From Bacteroidaceae bacterium (GTDB taxonomy: Bacteria > Bacteroidota > Bacteroidia > Bacteroidales > Bacteroidaceae), in assembly GCA_017556045.1 (NCBI GenBank), contig JAFZFF010000089.1, positions 1 through 59,422 on the forward strand: 59,422 nucleotides of DNA. The letters run 5' to 3'. The notes below the pieces were generated by a model. It was not told where the DNA came from. It searched no databases and saw nothing but the letters and a program-made list of their open reading frames with translations. The stretch's first letter is position 1. Each line of letters opens with the position of its first letter. Both the position numbers and the translations under genes were made by a program. Below, in pieces: positions 3,829-59,422 of the stretch.

Positions 3829-6645
3829 CTATCGAAGCTTATCACGAAGGTACTTCCCTGTATGTGAGGATGCGCACTGGGCTACCTCCTCGGGAGTGCC
3901 GCAAGCGACAAGCTGACCACCACGATCGCCTCCCTCGGGGCCTATGTCGATGATGTGGTCGGCACATTTAATGACCTCCATGTTGTGCTCGATAATGAGG
4001 ATGGTGTGGCCGCGCGAGATGAGGGCATCAAACGACTGCATCAGACGCTTGATGTCGTGGAAATGGAGTCCGGTAGTGGGCTCATCGAAGATAAACATGG
4101 TGGGCTCTGCCTTCTCAAGACTGAGATAGTAGGCGAGCTTCACGCGTTGGTTCTCACCACCAGAAAGTGTAGAGGAACTCTGACCTAGCTTGACATAGCC
4201 AAGGCCGACATCCTGCAGGGGTTTGAGGCGGCGTACCACCTTCTTGGCTCCATGTTCGGTAAAGAACTCAACGGCTTGGTTGACGGTCATTTCGAGGATG
4301 TCGTGTATATTTTTTTCGTGGTAGGTAACGAGTAGCGTGTCTGCCTTGAAGCGCTTGCCATGGCAGGCTTCACACTCAAGCACGAGGTCGGCCATAAACT
4401 GCATTTCGACGGTGATGGTGCCCTCGCCCTTACACTCTTCACAACGACCTCCCTCGCTATTGAAGGAGAAGTAGCCTGCGGTATAACCTAACTGCTTGGC
4501 CAAGGGCTGTTCGGCAAAGAGCTTGCGTATCTCATCGTAGGCTTTGAGGTAGGTGACGGGATTAGAGCGCGAAGACTTACCGATGGGATTCTGGTCAACA
4601 AACTCCACGGCACGAAGCATACGAATATCGCCCTTCAGTTCCAAGTGCTCACCGGGACGCTCAGTGCCCTCATCATACTCGCGTTTGAGAGCATTATAGA
4701 AGACGTCACGCACGAGCGAGCTCTTGCCCGAACCGCTGACACCTGTGACGACGGTCATCACATTGAGGGGAAACTTGACGTCGATGCCCTTGAGGTTGTG
4801 GTGACGAGCTCCGCGCACCTCGATATAGTTGTTCCACGGACGGCGCGAAGCGGGCACAGTGATGGTCTCCTCACCCAAGAGATATCGTACGGTGTGGCTC
4901 GTGGTACCAAGCTGCAGGTCGTGCATATCACCTTGATAGACAATTTCTCCACCGAGACGACCCGCATGAGGTCCCACATCAATAATGTAGTCGGCAGCAC
5001 GGATGATATCCTCATCGTGCTCCACGACAACGACGGTATTGCCAGCCTCTTGCAACTGGCGCAACACACGGACGAGTTTGTCGGTATCGCGGCTATGGAG
5101 GCCTATCGAGGGTTCGTCAAGGATATATAGAGAGCCTACAAGCGGACTGCCCAACGATGTGACAAGATTGATACGCTGGCTCTCACCTCCCGAAAGGGTA
5201 TTGCTCAAGCGGTTGAGCGTAAGGTATCCGAGGCCCACATCGAGCAGAAACTGCAGACGGCTATTGATCTCTACGAGCAGACGCTTGGCGATAGCTGCAT
5301 CATGTTCATCGAGCGCAAGCGTAGCGAAGAAGTGATGTAGCTCGGTCACGGGCATATCCACCAGTTCACAGATGTTGCGACCACCAATCTTGACATACTC
5401 AGCCTCCTTCTTCAGGCGAGAGCCACGGCACGTGGGACACAAAGTCTTTCCACGATAGCGGGCCAGCATCACTCGATACTGTATCTTATACTGGTTCTCT
5501 TCGAGCATCTTAAAGAAGGAGTCTATGCAGGGTTTCGTGCGAGGTCCATGCCATAGGTAGTCCTTCTGCGCTTGCGTAAGTTCATAATAGGGGGTAAAGA
5601 TGGGGAAGTTGTCCTTTGCCGCCAGGTGGATAAACTCATCGCGCCATGCACTCATCTTATCGCCACGCCAACATACCACACAGCTATCATATACGCTCAG
5701 AGCACTATTGGGAATCACCAGTTGCTCATCGATGCCTATGACACGACCAAAGCCGCCACACGTTGGGCAAGCGCCCATGGGCGAATTGAACGAAAAGAGT
5801 TGCTCAGTAGGCTCCTCAAAGGTGATACCATCGGCCTCAAACTCCTTGCTAAAAGTGTGTAAGATACCTGCAGGATAGAAACGTAGCATACAGGTACCCC
5901 CACCCTCGTAGAAGGCGGTTTCGGTACTATCGATAAGGCGACTGATGGTCTCCTTGCTATCATCTGCAGAGAGGCGGTCGATAACTATATTCAATTGACA
6001 ATGGATAGTTGACAATGGGGAATTATTTCCATCCGGCTCCTGTACTTTTTCATTTGTCAATTTTTCTAATACTTCCTCTATACGCATAACCTCGCCATTA
6101 TACTCCACTCTCGCAAAACCCTGTTGCATGGCCACGGTGAGCTGCTCTTGTGGGGTGCGTCCCTCACGGACAACGAGTGGAGCAAGCACGGTGAAGCGTG
6201 TTCCAGGACTATATGTACGCATACAAGCTACGATATCCTCTGTGTCGTGTTTCTTAACCAGCTGCCCAGTTATAGGTGAGTAGGTCTTACCCACACGAGC
6301 AAAGAGCAAGCGGAGGTACTCATAGATCTCTGTCGAGGTGCCCACGGTAGAGCGAGGATTGCGACTGCTCACCTTCTGCTCTATGGCAATGGCAGGCGGC
6401 AAACCTTGGATAAAGTCGCACTCGGGCTTCTTCATACGTCCGAGAAACTGGCGTGCATACGACGACAGGCTCTCCACATAGCGCCTCTGTCCCTCGGCAT
6501 ATAGCGTATCGAAGGCGAGTGACGACTTGCCCGAGCCCGACAATCCCGTCACCACAACCAATTTGTTGCGTGGGATATCGACCTCCACATTCTTCAGATT
6601 ATTGACACGTGCACCCTTGACACGGATATATTTCTCTTCGCTCAT
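3829..6645 (-). CDS. uvrA: Excinuclease ABC subunit A
   Basis: UvrA is the damage-sensing ATPase of nucleotide excision repair; it loads UvrB at lesions. Both ABC modules are present: Walker [10 protein letters not shown] (about residues 34-42) and GVSGSGKSS, signatures LSGGESQR and LSGGENQR, Walker [11 protein letters not shown] and [10 protein letters not shown]. The zinc-binding pairs CPTC and CEEC/CEAC are intact. Length (938) is normal. Residues 207-218 ([12 protein letters not shown]) are encoded by a heptamer-repeat array at 5992-6025 and do not look like native UvrA; they fall in the variable part of the first module and keep the frame. The gene has its own -7 box and terminator. Confidence 0.97.
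5992..6025. repeat. Heptamer array inside uvrA
   Basis: Four consecutive 7-mers CAATTGA, CAATGGA, TAGTTGA, CAATGGG start at 5992 and run with exact period 7, followed by GAATTA. They resemble the intergenic arrays at 24692, 34960 and 59027. The repeat is translated in frame as part of UvrA residues 207-218. Confidence 0.75.
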
Positions 6646-6669
6646 GGTCGTAAATCATTATTCAATCGT

Positions 6670-6677
6670 CAAAGATA
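6670..6677 (-). promoter_or_regulatory. -7 box upstream of uvrA
   Basis: TATCTTTG on the minus strand matches TAnnTTTG and lies 25 bp before the uvrA ATG, so the transcript would begin near 6663. No convincing -33 TTG is seen about 20 bp further up. Confidence 0.55.
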
Positions 6678-6725
6678 CGATTTTTTCTCATATGCCATAG
6701 CATAGTGAGGCTATATTTTAAAGCG

Positions 6726-6756
6726 AATCCCCACTGCATTTGTTGCTATGGGGACT
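6726..6756 (-). terminator. Terminator of the FAS1/SusCD gene run
   Basis: On the minus strand AGTCCCCA pairs with TGGGGATT around a 15-nt loop, followed by CGCTTTAAAA. It lies 25 bp after the nitroreductase stop and marks the end of the long minus-strand run before uvrA. Confidence 0.55.
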
Positions 6757-24008: not shown

Positions 24009-24260
24009 TTATAGTATATGTTTTTACAATTTCTTCACACAAAAGCGACTAATCCGCCATTTCAATCTGCAAATTTGCAAAAAAAACTTTAATTTCACGA
24101 ACAAAAGTTCACTTTTTCTAACACAAAATATTTTATCGTTGTGTCGCGCCTCAACTATGCAGGTAAAAGTTAGCTAAGTCCCCAGCAAACATTAAGGTCT
24201 TTTACCCTAAAATCCCCATTTTCCAGGTGACAAAAGTTTATTTTTGGGGTGGCATGGCAG

Positions 24261-24316
24261 AGCTCATAGCTCAATGCTCATCGCTCATAGCTCAAGGCTC
24301 ACAGCTCATAGCTATT
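24261..24316. repeat. Heptamer array NGCTCAN
   Basis: Seven consecutive units of the form NGCTCAN (AGCTCAT, AGCTCAA, TGCTCAT, CGCTCAT, AGCTCAA, GGCTCAC, AGCTCAT) and one decayed unit run with exact period 7. No gene overlaps it. Confidence 0.85.
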
Positions 24317-24691
24317 ATACAAAGTACTATTTTGCTCGCACTAAGCGAAAAATATTTTTTACTTAGTACTATGTTTTATACTATTTTGCTTTACGCTCGA
24401 AAATCATAGGTTCGTTTTTTAGAAAAGGGCTATTCGTTTTTTAGAAAACACAAAGGCCTTTTCTTGCAATCGAACCTGCGTTTTTTACATCAAAGCTGTT
24501 TGGCAAAATTATCAGAGCTGTCCTCGAGAAAAATCACAGGCCTTCGTTGCAAAAAATGCAGCTGTCCAATTCGTCAAGTGTATACATCGAGTAAGAAATT
24601 TCTACACATGCAATAAAATTATTACGCACCTGCAATATATTTTTTACGTAAGTTAGATATAAGGCTCACGTTTAATAAAGCCCGGAGGCGA

Positions 24692-24739
24692 ATTATCAAT
24701 TATCCATTATCCATTGTCCATTAGCGAGCTCCGCTCGCT
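24692..24739. repeat. Heptamer array ATTRTCM plus stem-loop
   Basis: Four units (ATTATCA, ATTATCC, ATTATCC, ATTGTCC) are followed by TT and then AGCGAGC-TCC-GCTCGCT, a perfect 7-bp stem with a 3-nt loop (24723-24739). The same design (heptamers, TTA, stem with TTC or TCC loop) occurs at 34868 and inside clpB. Confidence 0.75.
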
Positions 24740-24853
24740 CTGCCATGCCACCCCAAAAATAAACTTTTGTCACCTGGAAAATGGCTATTTCGCATAGGTC
24801 ATTCGTCCCAAAACCACGAATCCATCGGATTTTACTAATTTTCCTAAGAGCAG

Positions 24854-29646: not shown

Positions 29647-29723
29647 AAGAGTGAAGAGTTAGGGTAAGCTCCCTCGCTCTTCGCTCTTCACTCTTCGCTC
29701 TTCACTTATAACTCTTCACTCTT
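29647..29723. repeat. Heptamer array with 15-bp inverted ends, directly before oxyR
   Basis: Seven 7-mers of form [AC][AG]CTCTT (29675-29723, one decayed to CACTTAT) end exactly at the base before the oxyR ATG. In addition 29647-29661 is the perfect reverse complement of 29709-29723 (15 bp). The array fills nearly all of the 83-bp nanA-oxyR gap. Confidence 0.85.
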
Positions 29724-34867: not shown

Positions 34868-34985
34868 GTCCATTATCAATTAACAACTTCGTTGTTGAGC
34901 TTCGGCTGCGCTCGCTGCAAAAGATAAGCCAGCTTCTCTCTTGCTCACTGGCACGAACCTTATCAATTATCAATTATCAATTGCC
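34868..34985. repeat. Composite repeat module, intergenic copy
   Basis: The module runs: CCATTATCAATTA, a stem AACAAC-TTC-GTTGTT, GAGCTTCGGCTGCGCTC, a middle part with AGCTTCTCTCTTGC, GCACGAACC, then TTATCAA three times (34960-34980). The clpB insertion at 59027-59137 (minus strand) shows the same order and much of the same sequence. The right end supplies the stop codon of the kinase gene (34977-34979). Confidence 0.75.
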
Positions 34986-36620
34986 AATATCCCCTACTAC
35001 CTTCGCACGATTCCAGTTGTCGGCTTTGCGGTATAGCTCCTCTGAGCCTTGTGGTACGTGTAGAGTGATGTTCTTCTTATTATATATGGGTGGTATGCGC
35101 TGTGGCACGGGGGAGTAGTTATATACATCGGTGAGGCTATCGCAGTCAAAGAATACATACTCACCTATCTCCTCCACCGAGGCGGGTATGTGTATCTCCT
35201 TCAGGCTTGTGCAGTGCCAGAATACGCCACGGTCTATCTTGGTCAATGTCGAGGGTAGCGATACCTCTTTCAGACTTGTGCAGATGGCAAAGGCATCGAG
35301 CCCCAGTACCTCTACACCTTCGGGGATGATGAGTTTCTCCAGCTTACCACACTTCACGAATGCCTTTTGTGGTATCTCCTTGATGTTTGTGGAGAGTTGA
35401 AGATTTATTAAGTTTTCTAGCATTTCGAAACTGCTCGCTCCAATCTTCTCAACGCTTTTAGGTAGATGTACCAATTTTAGTCGATTACACCGTCCGAAGG
35501 CATTGAATCCAATCTCCCGAATACCCTCAGGAATATAAACAGATTTCATATGACGCCCGCCATATGCTTCCGCCTCTACTGCTACTGTGCGATATTCCTT
35601 GCCCGCATTGTCGTACACCTTGTCATGGATGTAGAGATTCTCAAGTCGTTTACCTCCTACCGCCATGCAGATGAGACTGTCTTTAGAGAGTATTCGGTAG
35701 TAATTTCGTTCATAATAGATATCATAGTCAGGTTTTCTGAATCTCCACCTAAGTTCCAATAGCATTGTCCTATAATGGTCGGTCTTGCTATAGTGCGTAT
35801 ATCCTATATACAGGAACATCGCAAGAGTAAATGTTATCAGTATGCTACGCATCCATCTGCGCTTTTGTACGATGGCTCTGATGACCTCGTCCACATTGTC
35901 ATAGCGGTCTTGCTTAGCTATTGCGCTACATTTCTCGATGACGCGTCGCAAGCGCTTGGGTACATCAGCACACGTCACCTCCATCACATACCTCATCAGC
36001 TGTCCCAGGGCATAGATATCGGTGCGCTCATCTACCTCTCGGACATCGCCCATCTGTAGCTCGGGTGCCGCGAATGCCTGCGTAGTGCCTGCCGTATGGC
36101 TATAGGCATCGGCAAAGCAAAACCCGAGGTCAATGATTTTCACATCGCTATTCACCTGCGTCAGCATCACATTCTCAGGCTTCAGATCCAGGTATGCCAC
36201 ATGAGCTTCGTGTAGCGCCTTCAGTCCGCGTAGCAATTGCAGAAACAGTTTCTCAAAGTTACGCCTGCTTGCGAAATACTCTGGCTCCTGTGCCAACTTC
36301 TCTTCGAGCGTACGGCCATTCACCAGCTCCATTAGTATGTATAGTTCCTCGGCATCCTCATCGATAGCCTCGTATCGTACGATATATTCGTTGCTGATGC
36401 TACGCCCCACCTCATACTCCTTTTGGTAGGCCGAGCGGTATCGCCAGTCGCTCTTGAGCTCGGGGCGCAGGCGCTTCACAAAGTACTCCTTGCCCTCAAT
36501 GCGCACACGATAGGCCAACGATGTAGCGCCGCCGAAGGGCATAAGCTCCACGCGGTCAAAGCCCTCGCTCTCGATGATGCCCGAGGTGAGCGCCTTACTA
36601 TTTCTTATCAGTATGCTCAA
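34977..36620 (-). CDS. Hanks-type protein kinase fused to BspA-like leucine-rich repeats
   Basis: This 547-residue protein starts with a Ser/Thr kinase domain (about 22-255): glycine-rich FGGATSLAYRV, catalytic Lys49 (YFVKRL), a YLDLKPENV catalytic loop with Asp145 and Asn150, DLG (Asp164) in place of DFG, and APE (185-187). HRD reads YLD, but all catalytic residues are present, so activity is likely. One membrane segment (about 258-276) follows, then BspA-type leucine-rich repeats (about 340-520; IPEGIREIGFNAFGRCNRL, LPSTLTKIDRGVFWHCTSL). The kinase should face the cytoplasm and the repeats the periplasm, the layout of a receptor kinase. It is 6 bp after a small regulator-like gene and its stop lies in a repeat module. 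Confidence 0.9.
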   Translation of the reverse strand: MSILIRNSKALTSGIIESEGFDRVELMPFGGATSLAYRVRIEGKEYFVKRLRPELKSDWRYRSAYQKEYEVGRSISNEYIVRYEAIDEDAEELYILMELVNGRTLEEKLAQEPEYFASRRNFEKLFLQLLRGLKALHEAHVAYLDLKPENVMLTQVNSDVKIIDLGFCFADAYSHTAGTTQAFAAPELQMGDVREVDERTDIYALGQLMRYVMEVTCADVPKRLRRVIEKCSAIAKQDRYDNVDEVIRAIVQKRRWMRSILITFTLAMFLYIGYTHYSKTDHYRTMLLELRWRFRKPDYDIYYERNYYRILSKDSLICMAVGGKRLENLYIHDKVYDNAGKEYRTVAVEAEAYGGRHMKSVYIPEGIREIGFNAFGRCNRLKLVHLPKSVEKIGASSFEMLENLINLQLSTNIKEIPQKAFVKCGKLEKLIIPEGVEVLGLDAFAICTSLKEVSLPSTLTKIDRGVFWHCTSLKEIHIPASVEEIGEYVFFDCDSLTDVYNYSPVPQRIPPIYNKKNITLHVPQGSEELYRKADNWNRAKVVGDIGN

Positions 36621-36626
36621 TGCTGC

Positions 36627-37342: not shown

Positions 37343-37352
37343 CCAAATTATT

Positions 37353-37382: not shown

Positions 37383-37535
37383 AAATGTACCTTCCACACA
37401 TATTTATCACTGATTATCAGCATCTGTACGCTATATAATGATTCGCGTTTACCCCCTGGCAGTGGCTTTTTGAATTGAAAATTGAAAATTGAAACAACCA
37501 ACCTTCATTCTTCACTTTTAACTCTGCCCTCACCC

Positions 37536-38894
37536 TTAACCCACCTTTCGCAGTAACCATAAGCGTCGATTATCCACACGCACCTGCCGTGCACCTATCT
37601 CCTTGAGGTACCAGCCGAAGGTGGTGCGCTCGATGCCCTCCATCGCTGCGGGCGACTTCTCGCGCAAGCAGTCATATACATGAGCGGCAGGCCATAGCAC
37701 CTGCTGGCGCTCCTCTTCGCTGGTGGGCACCTCGCAAGGCTCGAAGGTACGACGCAGCAGATCCCACACGCCACGGTTGGTAGAGAAACCCTGGTTGTGG
37801 GCCTCGATGAGGCGTGTCTCGGCATCGTCAAACCAACTGCGCTCGCCCGCGGCAAGAGCAGCCAAGGCCTGGGCATAGAGCTGGGCATGGTCTACAGGCG
37901 TATCCACATCGATGGGAGCCTGCAGCTCTATGCAGATGAAGCGGCGACTACCCGTCTCATCACGCAAGAGGTAACGGCGGTTGCTCGTCGCCACGAACGA
38001 GGCCATACGCTCCAGCTCCTCCATCTGTCCGCGGTGAGGACGCTTCAGCGATATCGTGGCCAGCTGCACGAGGTTCTTCAGCGTAGCCATACGTGTAGTA
38101 GAGAAGCGGTCGAGCTCGTCTACATTGATGAGCCAGTACGAGGCCATACGGCGCAGACAGGTCTCCTCCTGTGCCAGGTTGAAGGTGTCGGTATAGAACA
38201 TCTGCAAGGTGGGTGGCACGATGAGCTTGGCAAACTGACTCTTGCCCCATCCCTGTTGCCGACTGATGATGAGCGGGCACACGCTATTGCCATACCTGCC
38301 GAGACGCCCCTGCACCTGTGCCACCATACCTAATAGCCAGCGGCGTAGCCATAGCAGCTGCTGCTCGTCGCTTGTGATGCGGCGAAAGAGCGCATCGATA
38401 TGGTCACAGCCATCCCACTGGGGCAGTGCATCGAGGTAGCTACACACGGGATGATAGAGCGGTATCCCCTTATGCCCCCTCACCACGGTGCGCACCAGGT
38501 AAGGCTTGTTCAGCCCGATGCCTGCATGCTGCATCTCCATCAGCAGGGTACAGCACAGCTCATCATTGAACGCGTGCCACGTAGCGCCAGCATTACCTCG
38601 CTCGCGCAGCTCGTGCTCGCGGCTCAAGCGATTGTAGCGCACGTTGTAGTGCTCCATGACATACTCTTCGGCACGAAGCAGCGATGAGTCATTCTTTGAA
38701 TTGAAAATTGAAAATTGAGAATTGAAAGTAGACTTCAACTCTTCCCTTTTCACTCTTACAGCGTTATCGTCATCGTTATCGTCATCGTTAACGTCAACGT
38801 TATCGTTAACGTACACGCCCCGCGTGTCTCTAAGCGCTGCTACTCTTCTTCGCAGCCACTCCTTTACTTCTAACAATAGATTTTTCACATTCAT
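37536..38894 (-). CDS. VirE/VapE-like P-loop ATPase
   Basis: This 452-residue protein resembles virulence-associated E (VirE/VapE) proteins, the helicase/primase-associated ATPases of phages and integrated elements. It has a degenerate Walker A (RQQGWGKSQF, about 210-219), Walker B (WLINVDELDRF, about 254-264) and an arginine-rich motif LLRDETGSRRFICIEL. The frame opens at 38960, but the promoter at 38958-38988 implies transcription from about 38951, so I chose the ATG at 38894 (MNVKNLLLEVKEW). Residues about 28-65 come from hexamer and heptamer repeats and give an Asp/Asn-rich low-complexity stretch. No integrase or phage gene is nearby. Its role in a chromosome is unknown. Confidence 0.78.
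   Translation of the reverse strand: MNVKNLLLEVKEWLRRRVAALRDTRGVYVNDNVDVNDDDNDDDNAVRVKREELKSTFNSQFSIFNSKNDSSLLRAEEYVMEHYNVRYNRLSREHELRERGNAGATWHAFNDELCCTLLMEMQHAGIGLNKPYLVRTVVRGHKGIPLYHPVCSYLDALPQWDGCDHIDALFRRITSDEQQLLWLRRWLLGMVAQVQGRLGRYGNSVCPLIISRQQGWGKSQFAKLIVPPTLQMFYTDTFNLAQEETCLRRMASYWLINVDELDRFSTTRMATLKNLVQLATISLKRPHRGQMEELERMASFVATSNRRYLLRDETGSRRFICIELQAPIDVDTPVDHAQLYAQALAALAAGERSWFDDAETRLIEAHNQGFSTNRGVWDLLRRTFEPCEVPTSEEERQQVLWPAAHVYDCLREKSPAAMEGIERTTFGWYLKEIGARQVRVDNRRLWLLRKVG
38700..38815. repeat. Heptamer and hexamer arrays inside the VirE-like gene
   Basis: ATTGAAA, ATTGAAA, ATTGAGA, ATTGAAA run with period 7 (38700-38727). Nine 6-mers of form CGTYAW follow (38762-38815; the last is CGTACA), translated on the minus strand as alternating Val/Asp and Asn/Asp residues. 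More CGTYAT hexamers lie in the leader at about 38912-38938, and similar ones near 39548-39570. Confidence 0.85.
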
Positions 38895-39156: not shown

Positions 39157-39203
39157 AATATCAATCCTTTGCAAAATGAGAAAAACGCACGTATGCCCTA
39201 AGA

Positions 39204-39224
39204 TTTTGAGCTTTGAGCTTTGGG
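39204..39224. repeat. Heptamer array YTTTGRG
   Basis: TTTTGAG, CTTTGAG, CTTTGGG run with period 7. Its inverse form, AGCTCAAAGCTGG, lies nearby at about 39258-39270, within the same gene-free stretch. Confidence 0.65.
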
Positions 39225-39391
39225 CTTACCTCCAAATGGGAAAAAGTTCACCACTCATAGCTCAAAGCTGGTTAAATTGTGAATTGTCACTCCCAGCCAA
39301 GGGGCAAATAAAAAATCGCTATAGCAGGTGTTGCATGAGGCATGGGCACAAAGCGCTATCACGCGCAACTCACCTATTATCAAGAAGAAAG

Positions 39392-39702: not shown

Positions 39703-39712
39703 ATAGCATAAC

Positions 39713-41155: not shown

Positions 41156-41189
41156 GACCAAAACTATTCTACTAAGAGGAGCTACAATA

Positions 41190-41435
41190 GTCAGTGCTTT
41201 GTCGCTATATATTTCCACCAAGGGCTACATCGAGCGCCTCCGCCAAGGATCCTACCGCAAGCTGATAAAGCGTGTGAGCAAGAAACTATCACAAGCTGCC
41301 TAATTGCCGAACACCACGCATTACACACTGATACCCCATTAGTTACGCGCGCAACTTTTGCCGAAACTTTTGCCGATTCATTGCTGAAGTTTTGCGCAAA
41401 AGTTGCGGTGTTTTATACAGACTCTGTATCGGCGC
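41190..41435 (+). repeat. Dispersed repeat, copy A: ORF tail plus structured non-coding segment
   Basis: From 41190 an open frame encodes GATIVSALSLYISTKG and IERLRQGSYRKLIKRV up to a stop at 41303; it has no start of its own and looks like the remnant of a lost gene. From about 41297 a non-coding part contains CTAATTGCCGAA and arms GCAACTTTTG (41351-41360) and CAAAAGTTGC (41397-41406). A diverged copy in the same orientation lies at 47156-47370. Confidence 0.6.
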
Positions 41436-41475
41436 CTACGCCATCATTATATAAAGTCACGCGCGCGAGCCTATA

Positions 41476-41522
41476 TGTACCAAAATGTACCAAGCTTGTT
41501 CAGTTTTATTAGAGTAACTTTG
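41476..41522 (+). promoter_or_regulatory. Promoter region of the small peptide/fimbrillin genes
   Basis: TGTACCAA occurs twice with 10-bp period (41476 and 41486), followed by GTTTTATTAGAG and TAACTTTG (41515-41522), a good -7 box. The nearest TTG (41496-41498) is 16 bp away, shorter than usual, so an activator at the tandem motif may be needed. Expected start near 41529. Confidence 0.55.
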
Positions 41523-41588
41523 CAATGAATAACATTCGAGTCCGCATAAACAGACGAGATAGTAAAGATTTATAAAAAATATTGTTCA

Positions 41589-41726
41589 ATGAAAGAAGCA
41601 AAATGTTATGCACCTCCCGAGATGGTGCTTATAGAGGTAGCTATCGAGCAAGGGTTCTTTGCCAGTGATGTAACCATAGGTGGATGGAACGAGGGCGGTA
41701 GCCTCGGAGATTATGATATAGATTAA
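41589..41726 (+). CDS. 45-residue peptide preceding the fimbrillin genes
   Basis: The ORF starts MKEAKCYAPPEMVLIEVAIE, continues QGFFASDVTIGGWNEGGSLG and ends DYDID. It has no signal peptide. The pattern (PE-M-x-L-IEVAxEQGF-A-S, then a GGW-x-EGG acidic tail) resembles short proteins I know to sit next to fimbrillin-type genes in Bacteroidales, which have no known function. It lies 67 bp after the -7 box and 30 bp before the first fimbrillin gene, so it is probably cotranscribed. Codon use looks normal. It could be a leader or signalling peptide, or a fimbrial assembly factor; there is no proof. Confidence 0.7.
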   Translation: MKEAKCYAPPEMVLIEVAIEQGFFASDVTIGGWNEGGSLGDYDID

Positions 41727-41756
41727 TAATTATTCATTTATATATGACTAAGTAAT

Positions 41757-42644
41757 ATGAAACAAAAGTTTTTTACTCTTGCAGTTGTGGCAACGATGTT
41801 TGCTGCCTGCACACAAAGTGATGAAGTTATCAATCCGGAGATTCCGCAGGAATCACCCATGACTGTTACAGCTGAAGTGGACGAGATGGGAGAGACTCGC
41901 GCAGGATATGATGCAAACAACCTCCCCTCTACATTCTACCTCACAGTGACTCAAGGTGCTACCGGATATGATTATTCGAACGTAACAATGGCCCAGCAAA
42001 ACTCTGGTAAATACACATCTACCACCGAATTGAAGTGGAAGGATGCGACATCTCGTTCTCCATTTGTCAGCGCATACACTATTAATGGAACAAGCATTAC
42101 TGTTACTACAGATCAAATAACTGCCGACAAAGTGAAAAGCAATGACCTCTTGGGTGCTGTAAAGGCTTCAGGTGCGTCAAGTGATGACGTTACTATCAGC
42201 GATGATCAAATCCAGATCAACTTCCGCCACTTGCTCTGCAAGCTTGATGTCACCTATGAGTGGGGAAGCGAGTTTACAGATCAAAACAAGTCTATCGAGA
42301 GAGTTATCTATCAAGGCTTCGGCACCAGCGCTACATTAGATCGCACCGCAGCTACTGTCACAGCTTCTGCTACAGGTAACATACAGGGATATGTGAATGG
42401 TAGCAAGTCAGAGGCGATTTTTGCACCAAAGAGCAGCAATCCCAAACTGGAAATCGTAGCTAAGATCAATGACGTAGAGCGCACATTTGCTGTAAATGTG
42501 ACAGCACCCAATGGTGGATTCAATTCAGGCAACTGCTACACTATGAATGTCACCATCGGCGGAAGTCCTGTTTCATCCGTTTCGGCTAATATTAGCAACG
42601 GATGGGGCACTACTATTACTGGTGGAAATCTTGCAACAAATTAA
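41757..42644 (+). CDS. Fimbrillin-family lipoprotein
   Basis: This 295-residue protein has a lipobox (ATMFAACTQSDEV, Cys18), then the fimbrillin-like N-terminal sequence with MTVTAEVDEMGETRAGYD, where the basic residue after the TR motif is a possible Rgp-type processing site as in Porphyromonas-like fimbriae. The middle has QINFRHLLCKLDVTYEW, the conserved FRHxLxKLxV strand of fimbrillins. It ends with a donor-like segment (SANISNGWGTTITGG). It is probably a surface-exposed pilin or accessory subunit and is followed 24 bp later by a second fimbrillin-like gene. Confidence 0.88.
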   Translation: MKQKFFTLAVVATMFAACTQSDEVINPEIPQESPMTVTAEVDEMGETRAGYDANNLPSTFYLTVTQGATGYDYSNVTMAQQNSGKYTSTTELKWKDATSRSPFVSAYTINGTSITVTTDQITADKVKSNDLLGAVKASGASSDDVTISDDQIQINFRHLLCKLDVTYEWGSEFTDQNKSIERVIYQGFGTSATLDRTAATVTASATGNIQGYVNGSKSEAIFAPKSSNPKLEIVAKINDVERTFAVNVTAPNGGFNSGNCYTMNVTIGGSPVSSVSANISNGWGTTITGGNLATN

Positions 42645-42668
42645 TAACACTCTTAAATGACAATAAAT

Positions 42669-44408
42669 ATGAATAAGACATATAAATACTTAGCAATGGC
42701 AGCTCTCGCTCTTGGCGTAGTAGCTTGTCAGCAGGACGATGAGTTCGCATCTCTCCACTCTGATGTCGTACGTATCGCTTCAGCCAATATCGCTGCTGAG
42801 GTGGACACTCGTGTAAATACTCTTGAAAATGGTAATGCTTTCGAATTCAACGACCAGATACTTTTGGTAAACGAGAACCGTACCAACAAGAACAAAGGTT
42901 TTTATACCTATAAAGGTTCTGCATGGAGCACCTCTGATATGGTACTTTATGCTTCAGGAACAAACACATTCAAGGCATACTATCCTGCACAAGAGAGCTT
43001 CGTACTCCCTGTTGACCAAAGCACTACAGAAGGCATCAAGTCAGCAGACCGTATGATAGCTTCTGCAACTGCCACAAAGGGAAATGCAGTAAGTCTTAGC
43101 TTCGCACGTCAGATGGCAAAAGTTACGGTAAATGTGACGATGAACACAGAGTACTCATCTACTACTAAAATCTCGTCATTGACTATCAATAGCTATGATG
43201 GAAAACAAGTTACTCCATACGGTAGTGACAAATCCTATACCGCTATCCTTACTCCTGGAACATACACCTCTGGCGCGACATTCATCGAAGTCACTGTAGG
43301 CGACAAGACAATGACCGTTCCCGTAAACAGCACCCTGACAGGAGGACTCCAAGCTGGTAAGCACTACACATTCTCACTCACCGTGGGCAAGGAGGCTGTC
43401 ATAAGCAATGATGTCACTGTTAAGTCATGGACAACAACCGCTATTACTGATGGAGAAGCAGAGGAGATAGTAATCCCGTATTTGACATTTGCTGCTATAA
43501 ATGAACAATATGTAACCGTCAATATCAATGGCACATACGATTTAGGAGATAACTTTGAGTATTCCCTAAACAATGGAGCATGGACAACACTTACAGCTAA
43601 TACAGCCATAAAATTTGGTGGTACCAACGGTAACTTGCGTTTGCGCGGTAAGAGTAATAACGGTACCGCAACAGATGGCAAAAATTATGCCTATTTCGAC
43701 TTTACTTATGATAATCACACCGTGAGATGTACCGGAGATATTCGCACATTGGTAGATTATAGTAATTATAACACTGTAAATACTGAAAATGCAAGATTTT
43801 GTTCATTATTCGAGAACTGTGATTGTCTGAAATCAACTCCAGATTTGCCTGCTACTAAATTGGCATCATACTGCTATTTTAATATGTTTCATAACTGTAG
43901 CAAACTAACCACAACTCCTGCTCTACCAGCTATGACTATGAAAGAATCATGCTATAATAGTATGTTTTGGGCTTGTGATGCTTTAACAACAGCCTTAGAA
44001 TTACCAGCTACCACCTTGGCTAAGTCTTGTTATGCAAACATGTTTGGTAATTGCAATGCATTGACTAATGTACAGAACATATTACCAGCAACCACTCTGC
44101 AAGAAGCATGCTATAAAAGAATGTATTATGGTTGTAGAATGACATCTGCACCAACTTTGCCAGCCTCTACTCTTGTAAAAGATTGCTACAGGGATATGTT
44201 TGCTTATTGTGAAAAGCTTAATAATGTCGTTATGTTGGCTACTACAATTCCGAGTAATGAAGATTGCCTTACTTCTTGGTTAGTTTCCTCAACAGATGAC
44301 GACGGAGATATAAAAAGAAAGCCAGGAACAATCACACTAAAAACTGGAGTAACGTTGCCTACGGGTGAATCTGGTATACCTGAAGGTTGGACAGTTATTC
44401 GTCAGTAA
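42669..44408 (+). CDS. Fimbrillin-like lipoprotein with Cys-rich BspA-like repeats
   Basis: This 579-residue lipoprotein (ALGVVACQQDDEF, lipobox cysteine 20) starts with a fimbrillin-like half (residues to about 270; SLSFARQMAKVTVNVTM is the conserved strand, GKHYTFSLTVGKE the domain end). A linker follows, then about six 23-26-residue repeats of the form CYxxMFxxCxxLxxxPxLPAxTL (about 385-530), for example SCYNSMFWACDALTTALELP. I chose the second ATG (42669) because the first four residues of the longer frame precede a normal signal. Fusion of a pilin-like base to an LRR tip suggests a surface adhesin. A strong terminator follows. Confidence 0.85.
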   Translation: MNKTYKYLAMAALALGVVACQQDDEFASLHSDVVRIASANIAAEVDTRVNTLENGNAFEFNDQILLVNENRTNKNKGFYTYKGSAWSTSDMVLYASGTNTFKAYYPAQESFVLPVDQSTTEGIKSADRMIASATATKGNAVSLSFARQMAKVTVNVTMNTEYSSTTKISSLTINSYDGKQVTPYGSDKSYTAILTPGTYTSGATFIEVTVGDKTMTVPVNSTLTGGLQAGKHYTFSLTVGKEAVISNDVTVKSWTTTAITDGEAEEIVIPYLTFAAINEQYVTVNINGTYDLGDNFEYSLNNGAWTTLTANTAIKFGGTNGNLRLRGKSNNGTATDGKNYAYFDFTYDNHTVRCTGDIRTLVDYSNYNTVNTENARFCSLFENCDCLKSTPDLPATKLASYCYFNMFHNCSKLTTTPALPAMTMKESCYNSMFWACDALTTALELPATTLAKSCYANMFGNCNALTNVQNILPATTLQEACYKRMYYGCRMTSAPTLPASTLVKDCYRDMFAYCEKLNNVVMLATTIPSNEDCLTSWLVSSTDDDGDIKRKPGTITLKTGVTLPTGESGIPEGWTVIRQ

Positions 44409-44535
44409 TATTCCTTAGTTAATAAAACCACAGCAATGTAAAGGACAATGTGTCAAACAAACATATACAGCAATATAGATTTTGGCACCACTCCCGACAC
44501 ATCATATTAGTTATCTGCTGATAATTAAGTAAAAC

Positions 44536-44580
44536 AAGAAATGCGATTTGCAATTAATCAATATGCAAGTCGCATTTCTT
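44536..44580 (+). terminator. Terminator after the fimbrillin genes
   Basis: Arms of 17 bp (44536-44552 and 44564-44580) pair with one mismatch around an 11-nt loop, ending in TTTCTTATA. This is the strongest hairpin in the 44409-44758 gap and can work in both directions. Confidence 0.75.
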
Positions 44581-44685
44581 ATATAGTAATAACAGGTAGA
44601 GTCTACTGAGTGTACACTCTTAGTTCTACTATCATCTCTCAGCGTTGATCCCCACAATAGGGGTCACTAAACTCATAAAAAAGAA

Positions 44686-44709
44686 GCGAGCAGTCATCAG
44701 ACTACCCGC
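44686..44709 (-). terminator. Terminator of the EF-hand membrane protein gene
   Basis: On the minus strand GCGGGTAGTC pairs with GACTGCTCGC (two G-U) around a 4-nt loop and is followed by TTCTTTTTT. It lies 49 bp after the stop codon. Confidence 0.85.
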
Positions 44710-44758
44710 TTTTTTACTAGCAATACAGTTCGCTTATACGAGACTATACTGATCGTGA

Positions 44759-46984
44759 TTATTCCTCTACGGTCTCATTGCTTGTCTCTACTTCTATGGA
44801 TTCTGTAGTCTCCACCACCTCTACAGCTGCCTTATTGAAGCAAGAGAGAGGTGAGGGATACTTGGCCCATGCGAGCAGGTTGGTGAGCCAGAGCGCACCG
44901 ATTACCACTGCCAGCATCACCAGAGAGATGAGGCACTTCTTCCATGTGGGAATGCCCTTCTTAGCATAGGGGTCCTTGAGCTTAAGCTTTGGATACTTGG
45001 CAATGTCGGTGAGTGTCTCGCCGAAGGGGATGCTGATCTTTGATGCCGCATTGATAGCCCATCCGTTGGCGTTGAGCAACGGAGCTATATTGCGGCGGCG
45101 CAGCTTCATCCATGCCAATATCATCGCAGGACCAGAGATTACGAGCATGATGCCTACGAATGCTGCGATCAGCTGCCACCAACTGAGCTCGAAGATACCC
45201 TTGAAGATAGAGGTCAGCATTGTGCCTATCATGCCGACGGCCATACCTATGGCAGCAAAGATACCGGCAAACTTAGCGATATCGAAGGGGGGAGTCGCTG
45301 TCTTGCCATCTGTGGCGGCGCCAGCGGCGGGTGCAGCGGTAGGTGCTGCATTGATCTTTGCCGTCACATCCTTCATCATAGCAGCATCCTTGTCGGCAGC
45401 GCTCTTATTGATGAGATTCTCGATGGCGGTAGCCATGCGGCGGTAGGGAGACCAGAAGGCCTGTCCTATGCTGATGGGGTTGTCGATAATCTTGGTGATG
45501 ACAGCATCCCATATGCAACCTTCGTTGTCGTAGTAAATAGCATTCTTACCCACGAAGAGGTCACCGATGTCGCCCACGGTCACCGTAGCTACGATGGTCT
45601 GCTTTGTACTCTTGATGGGTGAGGTGCAGTCACAGTACACGAGATACATGCCACTGGCGGCTGCCATTGTGTTGTGCTTGCCCATGTCGGCCACCTTCAT
45701 ACAGAGGCGACACTCGCGCTGGTCGATGATAAGTCGGCCACTCTGGAAGATAGCTGCCACCTTCTTATCCTTGTCGTAGAAGTCGTGGAAGGTGATGAAG
45801 TTGCGGAGCAGACGATAGAAGTCGCGATAGATATGCAAAAATCTGTTTACCATCTCGATGCTCTCGGCCTCCTCCTTGAGTGTGGCGTCTTTGGCAATGA
45901 GGTCGAGCAACGCCTGTTTCTTGTCGTCAGCGATAAGCTTCTGTATCGCCTCTGTGCCGAGCACCTCTACCTCGCCACCCTTCTTGGCAGCCTTCCAACC
46001 GTTATATGCAGCGAAGGTAGCTCCAATAGCCGCCCATGAAGCCTCGGTGAAGGCCTTCTCGGTGGGTTTGACGATAGCTACGAGTGTCTCAAACTGAGCT
46101 GCCCATGCGGGGTTGATGGGGGCGTCGATGTCGAGCTCTACCTTGTCGGTGATGCGTGCCAGTGGATATGAAGCTATCTCATCGGTTTTGCCGGTGAGGT
46201 TATCGGCGCTGATGCTCTCGATGAGCGCGGTTTGTACGTCGAGCTTTGCAGTGCTCTCGGGAGAGAATGAGGCCAGTTTGGCGCGTACGAAGTAGTCCTT
46301 TACTTTAGCGTCGAGAGCATTATAAATCTCTATTGCCTTGTCTGTGTCAGCGCCATAAGGAGCCTCTATAGCAGCAGCCTGCCATGCGGTATAGTCGTTG
46401 AGCGCCTGGTAAAACTTTTCAATGCTTTCTGCATTGACACCGTTCTCTCCGCTACGGTCAGCCACGCTGCCCATTGTCTTGATGATAGCTGCTATAGCAG
46501 CCTTCTCCTCATCGTTAGATGCGCTCAGTTCTGAGATGATGCCATCGCCATTGAATCCAGTCTTGGCGAATATTGCCGCGATGTCAGCCGAATCAGCCAA
46601 GGTGATGACGTTGCCCTCCTTACCCAGGTTAGAGAGTATCTGTCGGCTCGAATTATAAAGCTTCTTGCCAGCTGCGTCCTCCTTATTCAGCAGCTCGATG
46701 TCGATATTGTCGTCACCCTTGAGCAGCAGATCGGCATTCTTGATGGCACCCGTCATCCACTGAGCAGTAGCCACGATATCATTTACTCTGATACGTCCGT
46801 CGTGGTCGGTGTCGATGTATTGCAAACTCTTTTCGTCTATCTCAAGTCCTGTTGATGGGCATGAGAGTACAGTCCACATCTTGGGGTCCAACTCGCCGAG
46901 GTGCGCGATATCGGCTCCCGTAGTAATCTTTACGCGGGTAGAACCTCCGATGTTCTCGTAGTTCCATGAGTGTTTCTTTGCCAT
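44759..46984 (-). CDS. Large EF-hand membrane protein of unknown function
   Basis: This 741-residue protein starts MAKKHSWNYENIGGSTRVKI. An EF-hand loop, DTDHDGRIRVND (58-69), is well formed; a second calcium-loop-like stretch, FNGDGIIS, lies at about 146-153. A long Ala-rich helical middle follows, then a patch with CRLCMKVADMGKHNTMAA and YCDCTSP. The C-terminal third has membrane segments (FAGIFAAIGMAVGMIGTML; LIAAFVGIMLVISGPAMILA; CLISLVMLAVVIGALWL) and ends in an acidic tail. There is no signal peptide. I know of no characterised family. It is monocistronic, with a consensus promoter and intrinsic terminator, which argues for a regulated, real gene. Confidence 0.8.
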   Translation of the reverse strand: MAKKHSWNYENIGGSTRVKITTGADIAHLGELDPKMWTVLSCPSTGLEIDEKSLQYIDTDHDGRIRVNDIVATAQWMTGAIKNADLLLKGDDNIDIELLNKEDAAGKKLYNSSRQILSNLGKEGNVITLADSADIAAIFAKTGFNGDGIISELSASNDEEKAAIAAIIKTMGSVADRSGENGVNAESIEKFYQALNDYTAWQAAAIEAPYGADTDKAIEIYNALDAKVKDYFVRAKLASFSPESTAKLDVQTALIESISADNLTGKTDEIASYPLARITDKVELDIDAPINPAWAAQFETLVAIVKPTEKAFTEASWAAIGATFAAYNGWKAAKKGGEVEVLGTEAIQKLIADDKKQALLDLIAKDATLKEEAESIEMVNRFLHIYRDFYRLLRNFITFHDFYDKDKKVAAIFQSGRLIIDQRECRLCMKVADMGKHNTMAAASGMYLVYCDCTSPIKSTKQTIVATVTVGDIGDLFVGKNAIYYDNEGCIWDAVITKIIDNPISIGQAFWSPYRRMATAIENLINKSAADKDAAMMKDVTAKINAAPTAAPAAGAATDGKTATPPFDIAKFAGIFAAIGMAVGMIGTMLTSIFKGIFELSWWQLIAAFVGIMLVISGPAMILAWMKLRRRNIAPLLNANGWAINAASKISIPFGETLTDIAKYPKLKLKDPYAKKGIPTWKKCLISLVMLAVVIGALWLTNLLAWAKYPSPLSCFNKAAVEVVETTESIEVETSNETVEE

Positions 46985-47035
46985 TTCTTCTTATGTTATA
47001 TGTTTGTGATTGTCGTGCGTTGATCTAAAATCATG

Positions 47036-47066
47036 CAAATATACTTCTTTTTTTTACCCACGCAAA
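47036..47066 (-). promoter_or_regulatory. Promoter of the EF-hand membrane protein gene
   Basis: TTTG (47066-47063), a 19-bp spacer and TATATTTG (47043-47036) on the minus strand match the consensus closely. Confidence 0.75.
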
Positions 47067-47155
47067 GCGATAGCCTAATAAAATCACAGCACCCAATCTA
47101 CCAACATTGGCGCAGCTCATGTAAGACCTGAACGGCCTATTGAGAGACATGCTGC

Positions 47156-47370
47156 TCCAGTGTAGACGCTGGCGCCGATAGGATGAGAAGCTATAAGGGA
47201 GATAGAGTGCATGAGCAGAAATCTATCGCAGACTTCCTAATTGCCGAAACCACTATATTATCCACTGATTGTCATAGGAATTACACATACAACTTTTGCC
47301 GAATCATTGCCGAAGTTTTGCGCGAAAGTTGCGGTGTATCATACTGATTCAGCACCAGTGTCTGCAAGCA
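47156..47370 (+). repeat. Dispersed repeat, copy B
   Basis: This segment aligns by eye with 41221-41435 in the same orientation, sharing the diverged ORF tail and CTAATTGCCGAA, ACAACTTTTGCCGAA, GAAGTTTTGCGC and AAAGTTGCGGTGT in order. The frame is no longer open, so this copy is more decayed. It occupies most of the gene-free stretch 46985-47551. Confidence 0.6.
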
Positions 47371-47418
47371 ATTTTAATAAATCCTACGATAATCCGCACA
47401 CGTATCGACAAAATATAC

Positions 47419-47426
47419 TATCTTTG
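47419..47426 (+). promoter_or_regulatory. -7 box upstream of the YciO/Sua5-like gene
   Basis: TATCTTTG matches TAnnTTTG; the transcript would begin near 47433 and include the heptamer array before the start codon. No clear -33 element is present. Confidence 0.5.
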
Positions 47427-47489
47427 CGATAAATAAGGATTGAGAATTGAAAGTGATTACAATCCTATTTAATTTATAAATTACAATCT

Positions 47490-47538
47490 ACTCTAAACAC
47501 TAAACTCTCAACCCTCAACTCTCAACACTCAACCCTAA
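47490..47538. repeat. Heptamer array ACNCTMA
   Basis: Seven perfect units of pattern ACNCTMA (ACTCTAA, ACACTAA, ACTCTCA, ACCCTCA, ACTCTCA, ACACTCA, ACCCTAA) end 13 bp before the start codon of the YciO/Sua5-like gene, in its 5' untranslated region. Confidence 0.85.
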
Positions 47539-47551
47539 TACCCCTACTACC

Positions 47552-48163
47552 ATGTTACTAAAACTCTACGAAAAGAACAACGCGCGCCGCGACATCGACC
47601 GCATTGTGGAGATACTCAACGATGGAGGTGTCATCATCTACCCTACCGACACGACCTATGCATTTGGCTGCCATGCGCTGAAGGAGAGAGCCATCGAACG
47701 CGTATGTGAGATCAAGGGACTGGACACGAAGCATCACCTGCTCTCGGTAGTAGCACACGACATCAGTAGTATGAGCGAATATGTGCGTATCGATAACGAC
47801 ACCTTCCGCCTCATGCGCGACAACTTGCCAGGCCCCTTTACTTTTATCCTCCCTGCAGGAAACCGTCTGCCCAAGATATTCAAAAATCGTAAGGAGGTGG
47901 GTATACGCATCCCTGACAATAGCATCGTACAGGAGATATGCGAGGCCTTGGGTGCTCCCCTACTCTCTACCAGCCTCAAGGTGAGCGAACGCGAAGATGT
48001 GGAATATATGACTCTACCCGAACTGATCGATGAGAAGTATGGCGACCGCGTAGACCTAATCATCGATGGTGGTGTGGGTGACACGGAGCAGAGCACCATC
48101 ATCAACTGTGTAGATGGCGAACTGGAGATAGTACGACAGGGTAAAGGGTGGATAGAGGTATAA
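47552..48163 (+). CDS. YciO/Sua5/YrdC-family protein
   Basis: This 203-residue protein has the YrdC fold: VIIYPTDTTYAFGCHAL (27-43), LPGPFTFILPAG, VGIRIPDNSIVQ and LLSTSLKVS. True TsaC/Sua5 enzymes make threonylcarbamoyl-AMP for tRNA t6A modification and have a KxR...K binding set. Here the region after IKG reads LDTKHHLLSVV, closer to the YciO branch, whose function is poorly known. I therefore give no gene symbol. A heptamer array fills the leader. A bidirectional terminator follows, shared with convergent rpsP. Confidence 0.88.
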   Translation: MLLKLYEKNNARRDIDRIVEILNDGGVIIYPTDTTYAFGCHALKERAIERVCEIKGLDTKHHLLSVVAHDISSMSEYVRIDNDTFRLMRDNLPGPFTFILPAGNRLPKIFKNRKEVGIRIPDNSIVQEICEALGAPLLSTSLKVSEREDVEYMTLPELIDEKYGDRVDLIIDGGVGDTEQSTIINCVDGELEIVRQGKGWIEV

Positions 48164-58280: not shown

Positions 58281-58415
58281 TTTATCGTTTTATCACTTTT
58301 ATATAATTACTAAAAACATATAAAAAGATACGATTATATCAAACACATTTAGCGATATAATTAACATTTATAAGCCTGAAGCAATGTATGGAAATGTACA
58401 ATATTACACTGAAAC

Positions 58416-58434
58416 AGGAGGGTTGATCCCTCCT
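58416..58434 (+). terminator. Terminator-like hairpin 135 bp after hydE
   Basis: AGGAGGG pairs perfectly with CCCTCCT around a 5-nt loop, followed by ATTTTAG. The 135 nt between the hydE stop and the hairpin are AT-rich with no ORF, so they may be a long 3' untranslated region or an unrecognised small RNA. I see nothing else in 58281-58653. Confidence 0.6.
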
Positions 58435-58653
58435 ATTTTAGTATCTACAGTTATAAAACGATGTAAACATTTTTCAAGTATCACTATTCACTCATAATCA
58501 AGCTCTTATAATACATTCCTTAAAGAAGAACAAAATAATAACACTGATAATGATCGTGGACGCATAGATATAATGGCTCATATCAGATCTACATAAACAA
58601 AAACACATTACAACTAATGTTAGATTGTACAATTGTTCATATGGATTTTTGTA

Positions 58654-59422
58654 TCAATTAGTAAAGGTAAGCCCATCACTATCTGCATCGACCACGATCT
58701 CTCGGCCACGGTCAATCTCCATGCCCAGTATCTTCGTGGAGAGCACATTGAGCAGAAGATTCTGTATAGCACGCTTCACGGGGCGAGCACCAAACTCGGG
58801 GTCGTAGCCCGCATCGGCAATATAGTCTACCGCCTTCTCGGTCAATCGCAGACGGATGTCGTTAGCAGCCAACATGCGGCATACATTATTAATCTGTAGA
58901 CGCACGACCTGAGCTATCTCCTCACGATTGAGCGGGAGGAACATAATGGTCTCATCAATACGATTGAGAAACTCGGGTTTGATGGTCTGCTTGAGCATCT
59001 CGAGAAGCTCGCCGCGCAACTTTTCTAATTGAGAATTGACAATGGACAAGGTTTGTGCAAGCGAACGAGAGTCAAGCTTGCTCGAACTCTTGTTGTGAGC
59101 GCAGCCAAAGCTCAGCGAAGCTAATTGACAATTATCCTCAGAGAGGCTTCCCAACCGTTCGCGAATGAGCGAACTACCGAGATTAGAGGTCATAATGATG
59201 ATGGTATTCTTGAAGTTCACCGTACGTCCTTTATTATCAGTGAGGCGACCATCGTCGAGTACCTGTAAGAGAATATTAAAGACATCGGGATGAGCCTTCT
59301 CTATCTCGTCGAAGAGCACTACGGAGTAGGGCTTGCGGCGCACAGCCTCGGTAAGCTGGCCTCCCTCATCGTAGCCGATGTAGCCCGGAGGCGCTCCGAT
59401 GAGACGGGTCACGGAGAACTTC
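58654..59422 (-). CDS. clpB: ClpB disaggregase, C-terminal part (cut by window edge)
   Basis: ClpB is the Hsp100 protein disaggregase that works with DnaK. Only about 256 C-terminal residues are here, and the frame stays open to the window end. Visible parts of the second AAA module are TRLIGAPPGYIGYDEGGQL, Walker B VVLFDEIEKAHPDV, IIIMTSNLGS, FLNRIDETIMFLPLN and sensor 2 GARPVKRAIQ. Between the SNLGS strand and the FLNRID region lies an extra segment of about 37 residues encoded by a composite repeat module (59027-59137); ordinary ClpB has a short linker there. The frame is kept, so the protein may be functional. No obvious terminator is seen after the stop. Confidence 0.95.
   Translation of the reverse strand, partial: KFSVTRLIGAPPGYIGYDEGGQLTEAVRRKPYSVVLFDEIEKAHPDVFNILLQVLDDGRLTDNKGRTVNFKNTIIIMTSNLGSSLIRERLGSLSEDNCQLASLSFGCAHNKSSSKLDSRSLAQTLSIVNSQLEKLRGELLEMLKQTIKPEFLNRIDETIMFLPLNREEIAQVVRLQINNVCRMLAANDIRLRLTEKAVDYIADAGYDPEFGARPVKRAIQNLLLNVLSTKILGMEIDRGREIVVDADSDGLTFTN
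59027..59137. repeat. Composite repeat module inserted in clpB
   Basis: On the minus strand the order is: AATTGTCAATTAGC, a TTC-loop stem (AGC-TTC-GCT), GAGCTTTGGCTGCGCTC, a middle part with AAGCTTGACTCTCGTTC, GCACAAACC, then heptamers GTCCATT, GTCAATT, CTCAATT. The intergenic module at 34868-34985 has the same parts in the same order. The length (111 bp by my boundaries) is a multiple of three and adds about 37 residues. Confidence 0.75.

Follow-up and report, generated by a model that had tools for sequence, protein, structure and literature searches.

Heptanucleotide repeats are common in bacterial genomes, and no origin or function has been accepted for them (PMC4679880; PMC4692102). The closest described systems are TAACTGA heptamers of Beggiatoaceae, Cyanobacteria and five Bacteroidetes (PMC4679880) and convergent pairs of GGGAATC heptamers in Xanthomonas (PMC4692102), and a 2007 survey by Mrazek and colleagues, as related in PMC4679880, ranked heptamers first in abundance among the repeat classes of most genomes, with slippage of the polymerase as the proposed origin. 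Here we describe heptamer arrays in contig JAFZFF010000089.1 of a Bacteroidaceae bacterium (59,422 nucleotides, the whole stretch analysed and hereafter the window), which is one contig of a 104-contig, 2.54-Mb genome (G000, 78% complete). Ten arrays had been listed from the sequence alone in an original prediction, and two of them prove to share a terminal-inverted-repeat element at 24210-24790, similar to miniature inverted-repeat transposable elements (MITEs). On balance, we favour the view that these arrays are slippage-grown repeats of a long-known bacterial kind that have partly been dispersed inside MITE-like inverted elements.

The arrays are a known kind of bacterial repeat, and their paired, polarised, element-borne form is a variant of it. 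With the GGGAATC / GGGGA(C/T)T repeats of Xanthomonas and Nostoc (PMC4692102) they have in common the 7-base unit, a mostly intergenic position and few units per array; those repeats also form close convergent pairs (70 in one strain, 75 in another), as is seen here, their marked strand likewise reads away from neighbouring open reading frames (ORFs), and their length varies between relatives. They differ in being a single G-rich, quadruplex-capable unit family, whereas at least 38 consensuses, many of them AT-rich, occur in 81 arrays here, and the sections of PMC4692102 considered make no mention of carriage within an element bounded by terminal inverted repeats, which is seen here. The TAACTGA repeats (PMC4679880) are similarly intergenic heptamers, often by start codons, that change in 7-base steps between close strains, but they are built from a single unit, for the most part oriented forward relative to the start codon that follows, and this unit is missing from the consensuses here. 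The long simple sequence repeats (unit 5-11) of Mrazek 2007 showed the same heptamer excess with a suggested slippage origin; counts there were by genome, and what the present analysis contributes is the pairing, the polarity and the carriage by elements. The original prediction knew of no described counterpart outside filamentous cyanobacteria, and in this it is corrected by both papers (PMC4679880; PMC4692102). Except for the convergent pairs and strand preference of Xanthomonas (PMC4692102), no description of paired, polarised, element-borne heptamers was found in the literature searched, which did not cover subscription journals. MITEs are named in passing in PMC4692102.

MITEs and small intergenic inverted elements possess terminal inverted repeats and are short, non-coding and dispersed. 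Element 24210-24790 resembles them in all these features; it differs in that its interior is built of heptamer and hexamer arrays, and it is here termed MITE-like.

Reality and composition of the arrays

Arrays were called by self-match at offset 7 in at least 12 of 14 positions (looser levels being 11/14 and 10/14), genes were taken as ORF calls from an in-house script, and 20 dinucleotide-preserving shuffles served as controls for the window. The window yielded eight period-7 arrays, whereas the shuffles averaged 0.0, and the same test gave one array at period 6 and one at period 8, with harmonics at period 14 (5 arrays) and period 21 (6 arrays). The excess extends to the own-genome sample (516,485 bases in 34 stretches), where the counts are 81 arrays for period 7, 21 for period 6 and 4 for period 8, and to a 2.03-Mb sample of the own genome and four congeners, several congener stretches of which were picked because earlier searches had matched there, with 350, 80 and 36 arrays, respectively. 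Period 6 may partly reflect codon periodicity, so that the real contrast between 7 and 6 could be larger. Shuffling of 21 own-genome stretches gave 5.6 arrays against 37 observed, or 0.6 against about 32 after five N-stretches were subtracted from both. The 350 arrays have a median length of 4.3 units, and 269 of them lie outside and 81 inside ORF calls; these calls make up 88% of the sequence, which renders the arrays about 24-fold denser outside. The arrays are heptanucleotide simple sequence repeats, with head-to-tail 7-base units above chance and mainly intergenic. The dispersed set of genuine heptameric arrays that had been proposed is hence confirmed, shuffles being near zero and period 7 far above 6 and 8; neither a signal no higher than in shuffled sequence nor equal strength at periods 6 and 8, which the prediction itself had named as speaking against it, was found.

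All ten listed arrays can be read at their places in the window, though not at equal strength. Eight of them (24692, 29675, 34960, 37474, 38700, 39204, 47490, 59027) pass 12/14 and are all the arrays found at that level, while 24261-24316 passes 11/14, with Tandem Repeats Finder scores of 64 at period 7 and 85 at period 21. The array 5992-6019 reaches only 10/14, level with 24 calls across the window, is not above chance alone, and is missing from the 55 rows returned by Tandem Repeats Finder for the window at score 30. The claim that the period never changes was too strong, as one heptamer array has a hexamer array (38762-38812) for a neighbour and CGTTAT-like 10-mers top the list of 10-mers enriched near arrays. 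Contact with start or stop codons holds for some arrays (base 29723 abuts the ATG at 29724, and 34958-34988 holds a stop codon), and four arrays instead of three lie inside ORF calls (5992 in 3829-6645; 38700; 39204; 59027). A weaker array (32962-32994), the inverted partners, the polarity and the sharing of one terminal-inverted-repeat element by two arrays had all been overlooked.

The 81 own-genome arrays fall into 38 unit consensuses, the commonest being AACCCTC (8), AATTATC, AACTCTC and AAAATTG (6 each) and AATTCTC (5); none of these 38 is TAACTGA, GGGAATC or GGGANTN. That some unit positions are fixed while others vary had been predicted and is borne out by 192 arrays, which have a mean of 2.33 variable columns against 2.80 at random and 115 identical variants common to units of one array against 32 expected. 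Fewer variable columns together with shared variants would be the expected outcome of copying between adjacent units. The pattern ACTCTTCACTCTTC, with at most one mismatch, occurs at 58 places in the own genome against 6 for the reversed pattern, and at one place or more in 50 of 61 relatives.

The terminal-inverted-repeat element at 24210-24790

Strand polarity in array pairs was scored by the number of reading frames with stop codons, "inward" meaning that the stop-bearing strand reads towards the centre of a pair. The element consists of the following parts.

24210..24263, plus strand: left terminal inverted repeat of the MITE-like element, with conserved core AGGTGACAAAAGTTTATTTTTGGGGTGGCATGGCA; 54-base arms, 96% complementary; relatives elsewhere in the genome.
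24261..24316, plus strand: heptamer array NGCTCAN, just inside the left repeat; the stop-bearing strand is here not the inward one.
24690..24723, minus strand: heptamer array AATGGAT/AATTGAT, reading TAATGGACAATGGATAATGGATAATTGATAATT from the right repeat inward; the slot compared across copies.
24737..24790, minus strand: right terminal inverted repeat of element 24210-24790; 54-base arms, 96% complementary.

The element, which contains the arrays 24261 and 24692 between its terminal repeats, is MITE-like in having terminal inverted repeats and many dispersed copies. Window positions 24200-24800 have 141 matching stretches in the own genome, mostly short and at the element ends, and 20 extra places were fetched by resemblance to the window element, so that fractions within this family are not genome-wide estimates. 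Read inward from the repeat, copies show a small GC-rich hairpin, an array, often a CCGG-containing core, and then a hexamer run or a second array; 26 of 48 distinct inner repeat ends carry a heptamer array within 70 bases. The polarity of these 26, from the terminal repeat inward, is in for 18, out for 4 and equal for 4. Depending on the copy, the array slot is occupied by units of the AATGGAT/AATTGAT/AATTGAC, AATTAAA, AGTTATG or GAGCTNN types. Between the same anchors this slot measures 35 bases in the window and in loci L041 and L202, and 49 in L204 and L211, exactly two units more; L215 likewise holds one AATTGAT unit more than L018, and in L201, with a different right anchor, the slot is 34 bases. 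Unit number, as the 35- and 49-base slots and the L018/L215 pair make plain, changes by 7-base steps between element copies.

Two further loci (L214, L218) have the same terminal repeats around a short, different palindromic interior that holds no heptamer array. A 53-base relative (89%) of the array at 24261-24313 is present on the Pseudomonas rhodesiae plasmid NZ_CP125985.1.

Paired arrays, their polarity and their surroundings

Arrays at most 120 bases apart form 77 close pairs in the five samples. Scored by their stop-bearing strand, 53 of these are inward, 11 outward and 13 equal, some near-equal cases being scored as in or out and two pairs (L091, L130), identical in G015 and G013, being counted twice. 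Pairs with complementary arms are inward in 26 cases, outward in 7 and equal in 5, and those with unlike arms, which are neither complementary nor direct copies, in 23, 2 and 4 (n = 29). Because unlike arms keep the polarity, base pairing is not the whole reason for it. The bias is also present at gene ends: arrays 0-40 bases from stop codons are inward in 30 and outward in 11 cases (n = 53), and those 0-40 bases from start codons in 37 and 11 (n = 57), while none was found more than 40 bases from gene ends. An early test of two genomes gave 18 inward and 10 outward at start codons, which was not significant, and the bias came with five genomes. Arrays overlapping a stop codon are inward in 34 cases against 3 outward, a ratio that is partly trivial, since the array supplies the stop. 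A purine rule holds for the polarity too, beside the stop-codon rule; of the conflicting cases within 60 bases, 19 agree with the stop rule and 11 with the purine rule, which leaves the two unseparated.

The remaining arrays and arms of the window are listed below.

5992..6019, plus strand: degenerate array CAATKGA in ORF 3829-6645, followed by CCATCCGG in the same stretch; doubtful.
29647..29661, plus strand: left purine arm AAGAGTGAAGAGTTA, 15/15 complementary to 29709-29723.
29675..29723, plus strand: heptamer array [AC][AG]CTCTT, its last base adjoining the ATG of LysR-type gene 29724-30650.
32962-32994: weaker array, found by Tandem Repeats Finder.
34958..34988, minus strand: heptamer array TTATCAA, overlapping the 3' end of minus-strand ORF 34977-36620 by 12 bases and holding its stop codon.
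37471..37496, plus strand: heptamer array AATTGAA, left arm; offset-7 self-match at least 12/14.
37503..37523, plus strand: pyrimidine-rich array TTCATTCTTCACTTTTAACTC, right arm with another unit; 11/14.
38697..38727, plus strand: heptamer array AATTGAA, left arm, in the 5' part of VapE-like ORF 37536-38960 (minus strand).
38733..38760, plus strand: pyrimidine-rich stretch TTCAACTCTTCCCTTTTCACTCTTACAG after array 38697, right arm; seen by eye, not called as an array.
38762..38812, plus strand: hexamer array CGTTAT/CGTCAT beside the heptamer pair, found by Tandem Repeats Finder.
39204..39228, plus strand: heptamer array TTTGAGC, left arm; offset-7 self-match at least 12/14.
39256..39269, plus strand: right arm CATAGCTCAAAGCT, 93% complementary to 39209-39222.
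47432..47454, plus strand: weak left arm ATTGAGAATTGAAAG, 10/14 only.
47490..47538, plus strand: heptamer array ACNCTMA upstream of Sua5/YciO/YrdC gene 47552-48163.
59027..59049, plus strand: heptamer array AATTGAS in minus-strand ORF 58654-59412.

Complementary partners in the window are thus 29647-29661 with 29709-29723 and 39209-39222 with 39256-39269, and the two AATTGAA arrays (37471, 38697) have pyrimidine-rich runs of a different unit downstream. The VapE-like ORF opens with TTG, and its first ~170 residues, through array 38697 and the hexamer run, have no Pfam match; its true start may lie downstream. Between it and 39176-39706 there are nested strong palindromes at 39072-39157 (39-base arms, 82%; period-22 tandem). 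An Rfam search of the window gave no match, and the closest named relatives of the Sua5/YciO/YrdC protein (at most 93% identity) are in metagenome-assembled genomes (MAGs) labelled Bacteroidaceae from ruminant guts, which makes the host a gut member of this family.

Around the arrays, other modules recur. Of the 26 intergenic occurrences of the motif CCGGATGG, 14 lie no more than 100 bases from an array, where 8.8% would be expected, and for CTCCGCGATG the figure is 8 of 17. For 72 of 159 testable arrays the flank has a second match within its own sample, compared with 245 of 860 control spacers. Some conserved gene pairs, moreover, enclose a heptamer pair in one species but a different repeat in the other. 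The sequence CCCCTCCTTGGGAGGGG (L078, L138) marks a second family of spacer elements, which sits where a relative has heptamer pairs, and none of its 20 sites is within 100 bases of an array.

Comparison between species was made on 149 conserved neighbouring gene pairs, of which 17 have arrays in both species, 24 in one and 108 in neither. The nearest units of the 17 shared spacers are 0 or 1 base apart in 12 and 2 or 3 bases apart in 5, whereas random pairings are 0-1 apart in 29%; inheritance thus accounts for part of the arrays and exchange for another part. Median spacer similarity is 0.34 without arrays (27 spacers), 0.003 with arrays in one species only (12) and 0.42 with arrays in both (10), and between spacers with none and with any array no difference was seen (p = 0.32). 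Two genomes, G015 and G013, have in common one stretch (L091, L130) with 100% protein identity and identical arrays, which probably reflects recent transfer or mixing of MAGs.

The distribution of the arrays is uneven. A pattern of four AATTNNN units is present in 34 of 61 relatives, in a survey where several genomes were also rich in the control with the order reversed (TTAANNN). Over the phylum as a whole the AATTNNN pattern was met in 103 of 247 genomes, and patchily, some genera having dozens to hundreds and others none. Two genomes of the window's own genus (G005, G016) have almost no AATT-type heptamer arrays and offer a natural contrast for finding a responsible gene. Candidate causes were rejected in tests across 61 genomes, in one of which the TTAANNN control count was added to the array count, and partly incomplete genomes weaken any gene absence: loss of SbcD is not associated with arrays (p = 0.12 for all genomes, 0.75 with one per genus), reverse transcriptase (RVT_1) shows no association, Ku is found in 0 of 61, and RAYT (Y1_Tnp) shows no association across the 61 and has 0 matches in G000. 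For the REP/RAYT class, then, no Y1_Tnp protein was found in the own genome, at its 78% completeness.

Origin of the arrays

The view favoured here involves two processes. Arrays at a site would gain or lose whole 7-base units, and base changes would spread to neighbouring units, as seen between element copies; slippage or unequal exchange may be the cause. Arrays would also travel as internal arms of short modular inverted elements, in the order terminal repeat, small hairpin, inward-polarity array, core resembling CCGGATGG, then either another array or a run of hexamers, and lastly again a hairpin and a terminal repeat. This anatomy holds for the terminal-inverted-repeat family of 24210-24790, and the many pairs without terminal repeats may be remnants or cousins of such elements, as their shared core motif, pairing and polarity suggest. 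Arrays would settle or survive mainly between genes, most simply with no positive function, and transcribed matched pairs would fold into stable hairpins by start or stop codons, perhaps with an effect on expression in single cases.

Several observations weigh against dispersal inside such elements. Even though loci were chosen by resemblance, 22 of the 48 inner repeat ends have no array in the adjoining 70 bases, and the four arrays of outward polarity include the left one of the window's element (24261). In the unselected samples the repeat core has 7 sites in the own genome (516 kb), of which 4 are no more than 80 bases away from an array, and 21 sites in the four congeners, of which 1 has an array close by; the family therefore explains only few of the 350. 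The flanks of the repeat copies, inspected by eye, showed no target-site duplication, their outer ends being repeats in their own right, and element 24210-24790 was not tied to any transposase, a matching autonomous element not having been sought. In G007 the flanks are not more repetitive (3 of 13 against 46 of 156), and pairs without terminal repeats could have arisen independently.

The most serious alternative, possible though in our judgement clearly the less probable, is local slippage only, a proposal credited to Mrazek 2007 by PMC4679880 and PMC4692102. Each array would have grown in place from a chance doublet, slippage being easiest at 7 bases, with no mobility, and like units would recur through base composition and codon avoidance. 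An exact period with varying sequence, higher-order periods of 14 and 21 bases, variants shared within arrays and the patchy AATTNNN pattern (103 of 247 genomes) all agree with it. It does not, however, lead one to expect inverted pairs of fixed polarity, a homologous array slot in dispersed copies, a core motif beside arrays, or whole spacers exchanged between species.

Another explanation is that the arrays are selected RNA or DNA hairpins, acting as terminators, attenuators or mRNA stabilisers, whose inward stops would shield neighbours from read-through. Strong folds are indeed found (29641-29723, z = -6.1; L020 14830-14935, z = -10.9; L048 4590-4735, z = -6.1), arms adjoin gene ends at a median of 2.5 bases from stops and 16 from starts, and arrays are kept in the same spacer in the 17 of 149 conserved gene pairs already mentioned, as against 24 with arrays in one species only. 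Yet the unlike-arm pairs retain their polarity (23 to 2, n = 29) while folding weakly (L027, z = -2.1; L035, z = -2.3), polarity is no weaker at starts than at stops, and in congeners an array is missing altogether from many of these spacers, the window's Sua5 spacer being arrayless by eye in 11 congener loci. We regard selection for hairpins as an unlikely explanation.

Least credible by far is that heptamers are filler from break repair, the two 3' ends of a broken spacer being extended with heptamers and then joined, which would yield inward polarity and unlike arms. In its favour are the inward polarity seen on both sides of unlike-arm pairs, whole spacers that were replaced while the gene ends stayed, and arrays near both edges of the stretch at 34.8-47.5 kb (12.7 kb), whose flanking regions adjoin each other in three relatives. 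Against it, neighbouring genes stay together more often at junctions with arrays (61 kept, 47 broken) than at those without (251 kept, 518 broken), Ku was found in none of the 61 genomes and reverse transcriptase shows no association. Arrays as rearrangement breakpoints were rejected on the same comparisons, adjacency being kept in 61 of 108 with arrays and 251 of 769 without; these 877 junctions were run both ways and are not independent. A hint of a breakpoint came from the DHDPS and LysR neighbours, which the 8 relatives with both genes listed carry on different contigs. The flanks of the 12.7-kb stretch (34823-47548), which includes a kinase/LRR gene, the VapE-like gene and others, and has arrays near both edges here, are 45-57 bases apart in G008, G013 and G015; the stretch is therefore displaced or inserted in this lineage.

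A broader conjecture, to which we give little credence, is that arrays from Bacteroidota to Xanthomonas all represent the visible arms of a single class of selfish spacer elements, modular and inverted, whose polarity is inherent, the stop-bearing or the G-rich strand reading inward. The arms would be continually rebuilt by 7-base copying, so that period and polarity alone would be conserved, and not base pairing or any fixed sequence. For annotation, the arrays mean that errors may affect called ORFs, assigned start sites and the ends of MAG contigs in their vicinity. For slippage-grown repeats dispersed partly inside MITE-like elements, one slot that is comparable across element copies makes unit number, unit sequence and movement separable, and the polarity kept in unlike-arm pairs is a constraint for any explanation of these heptamers.

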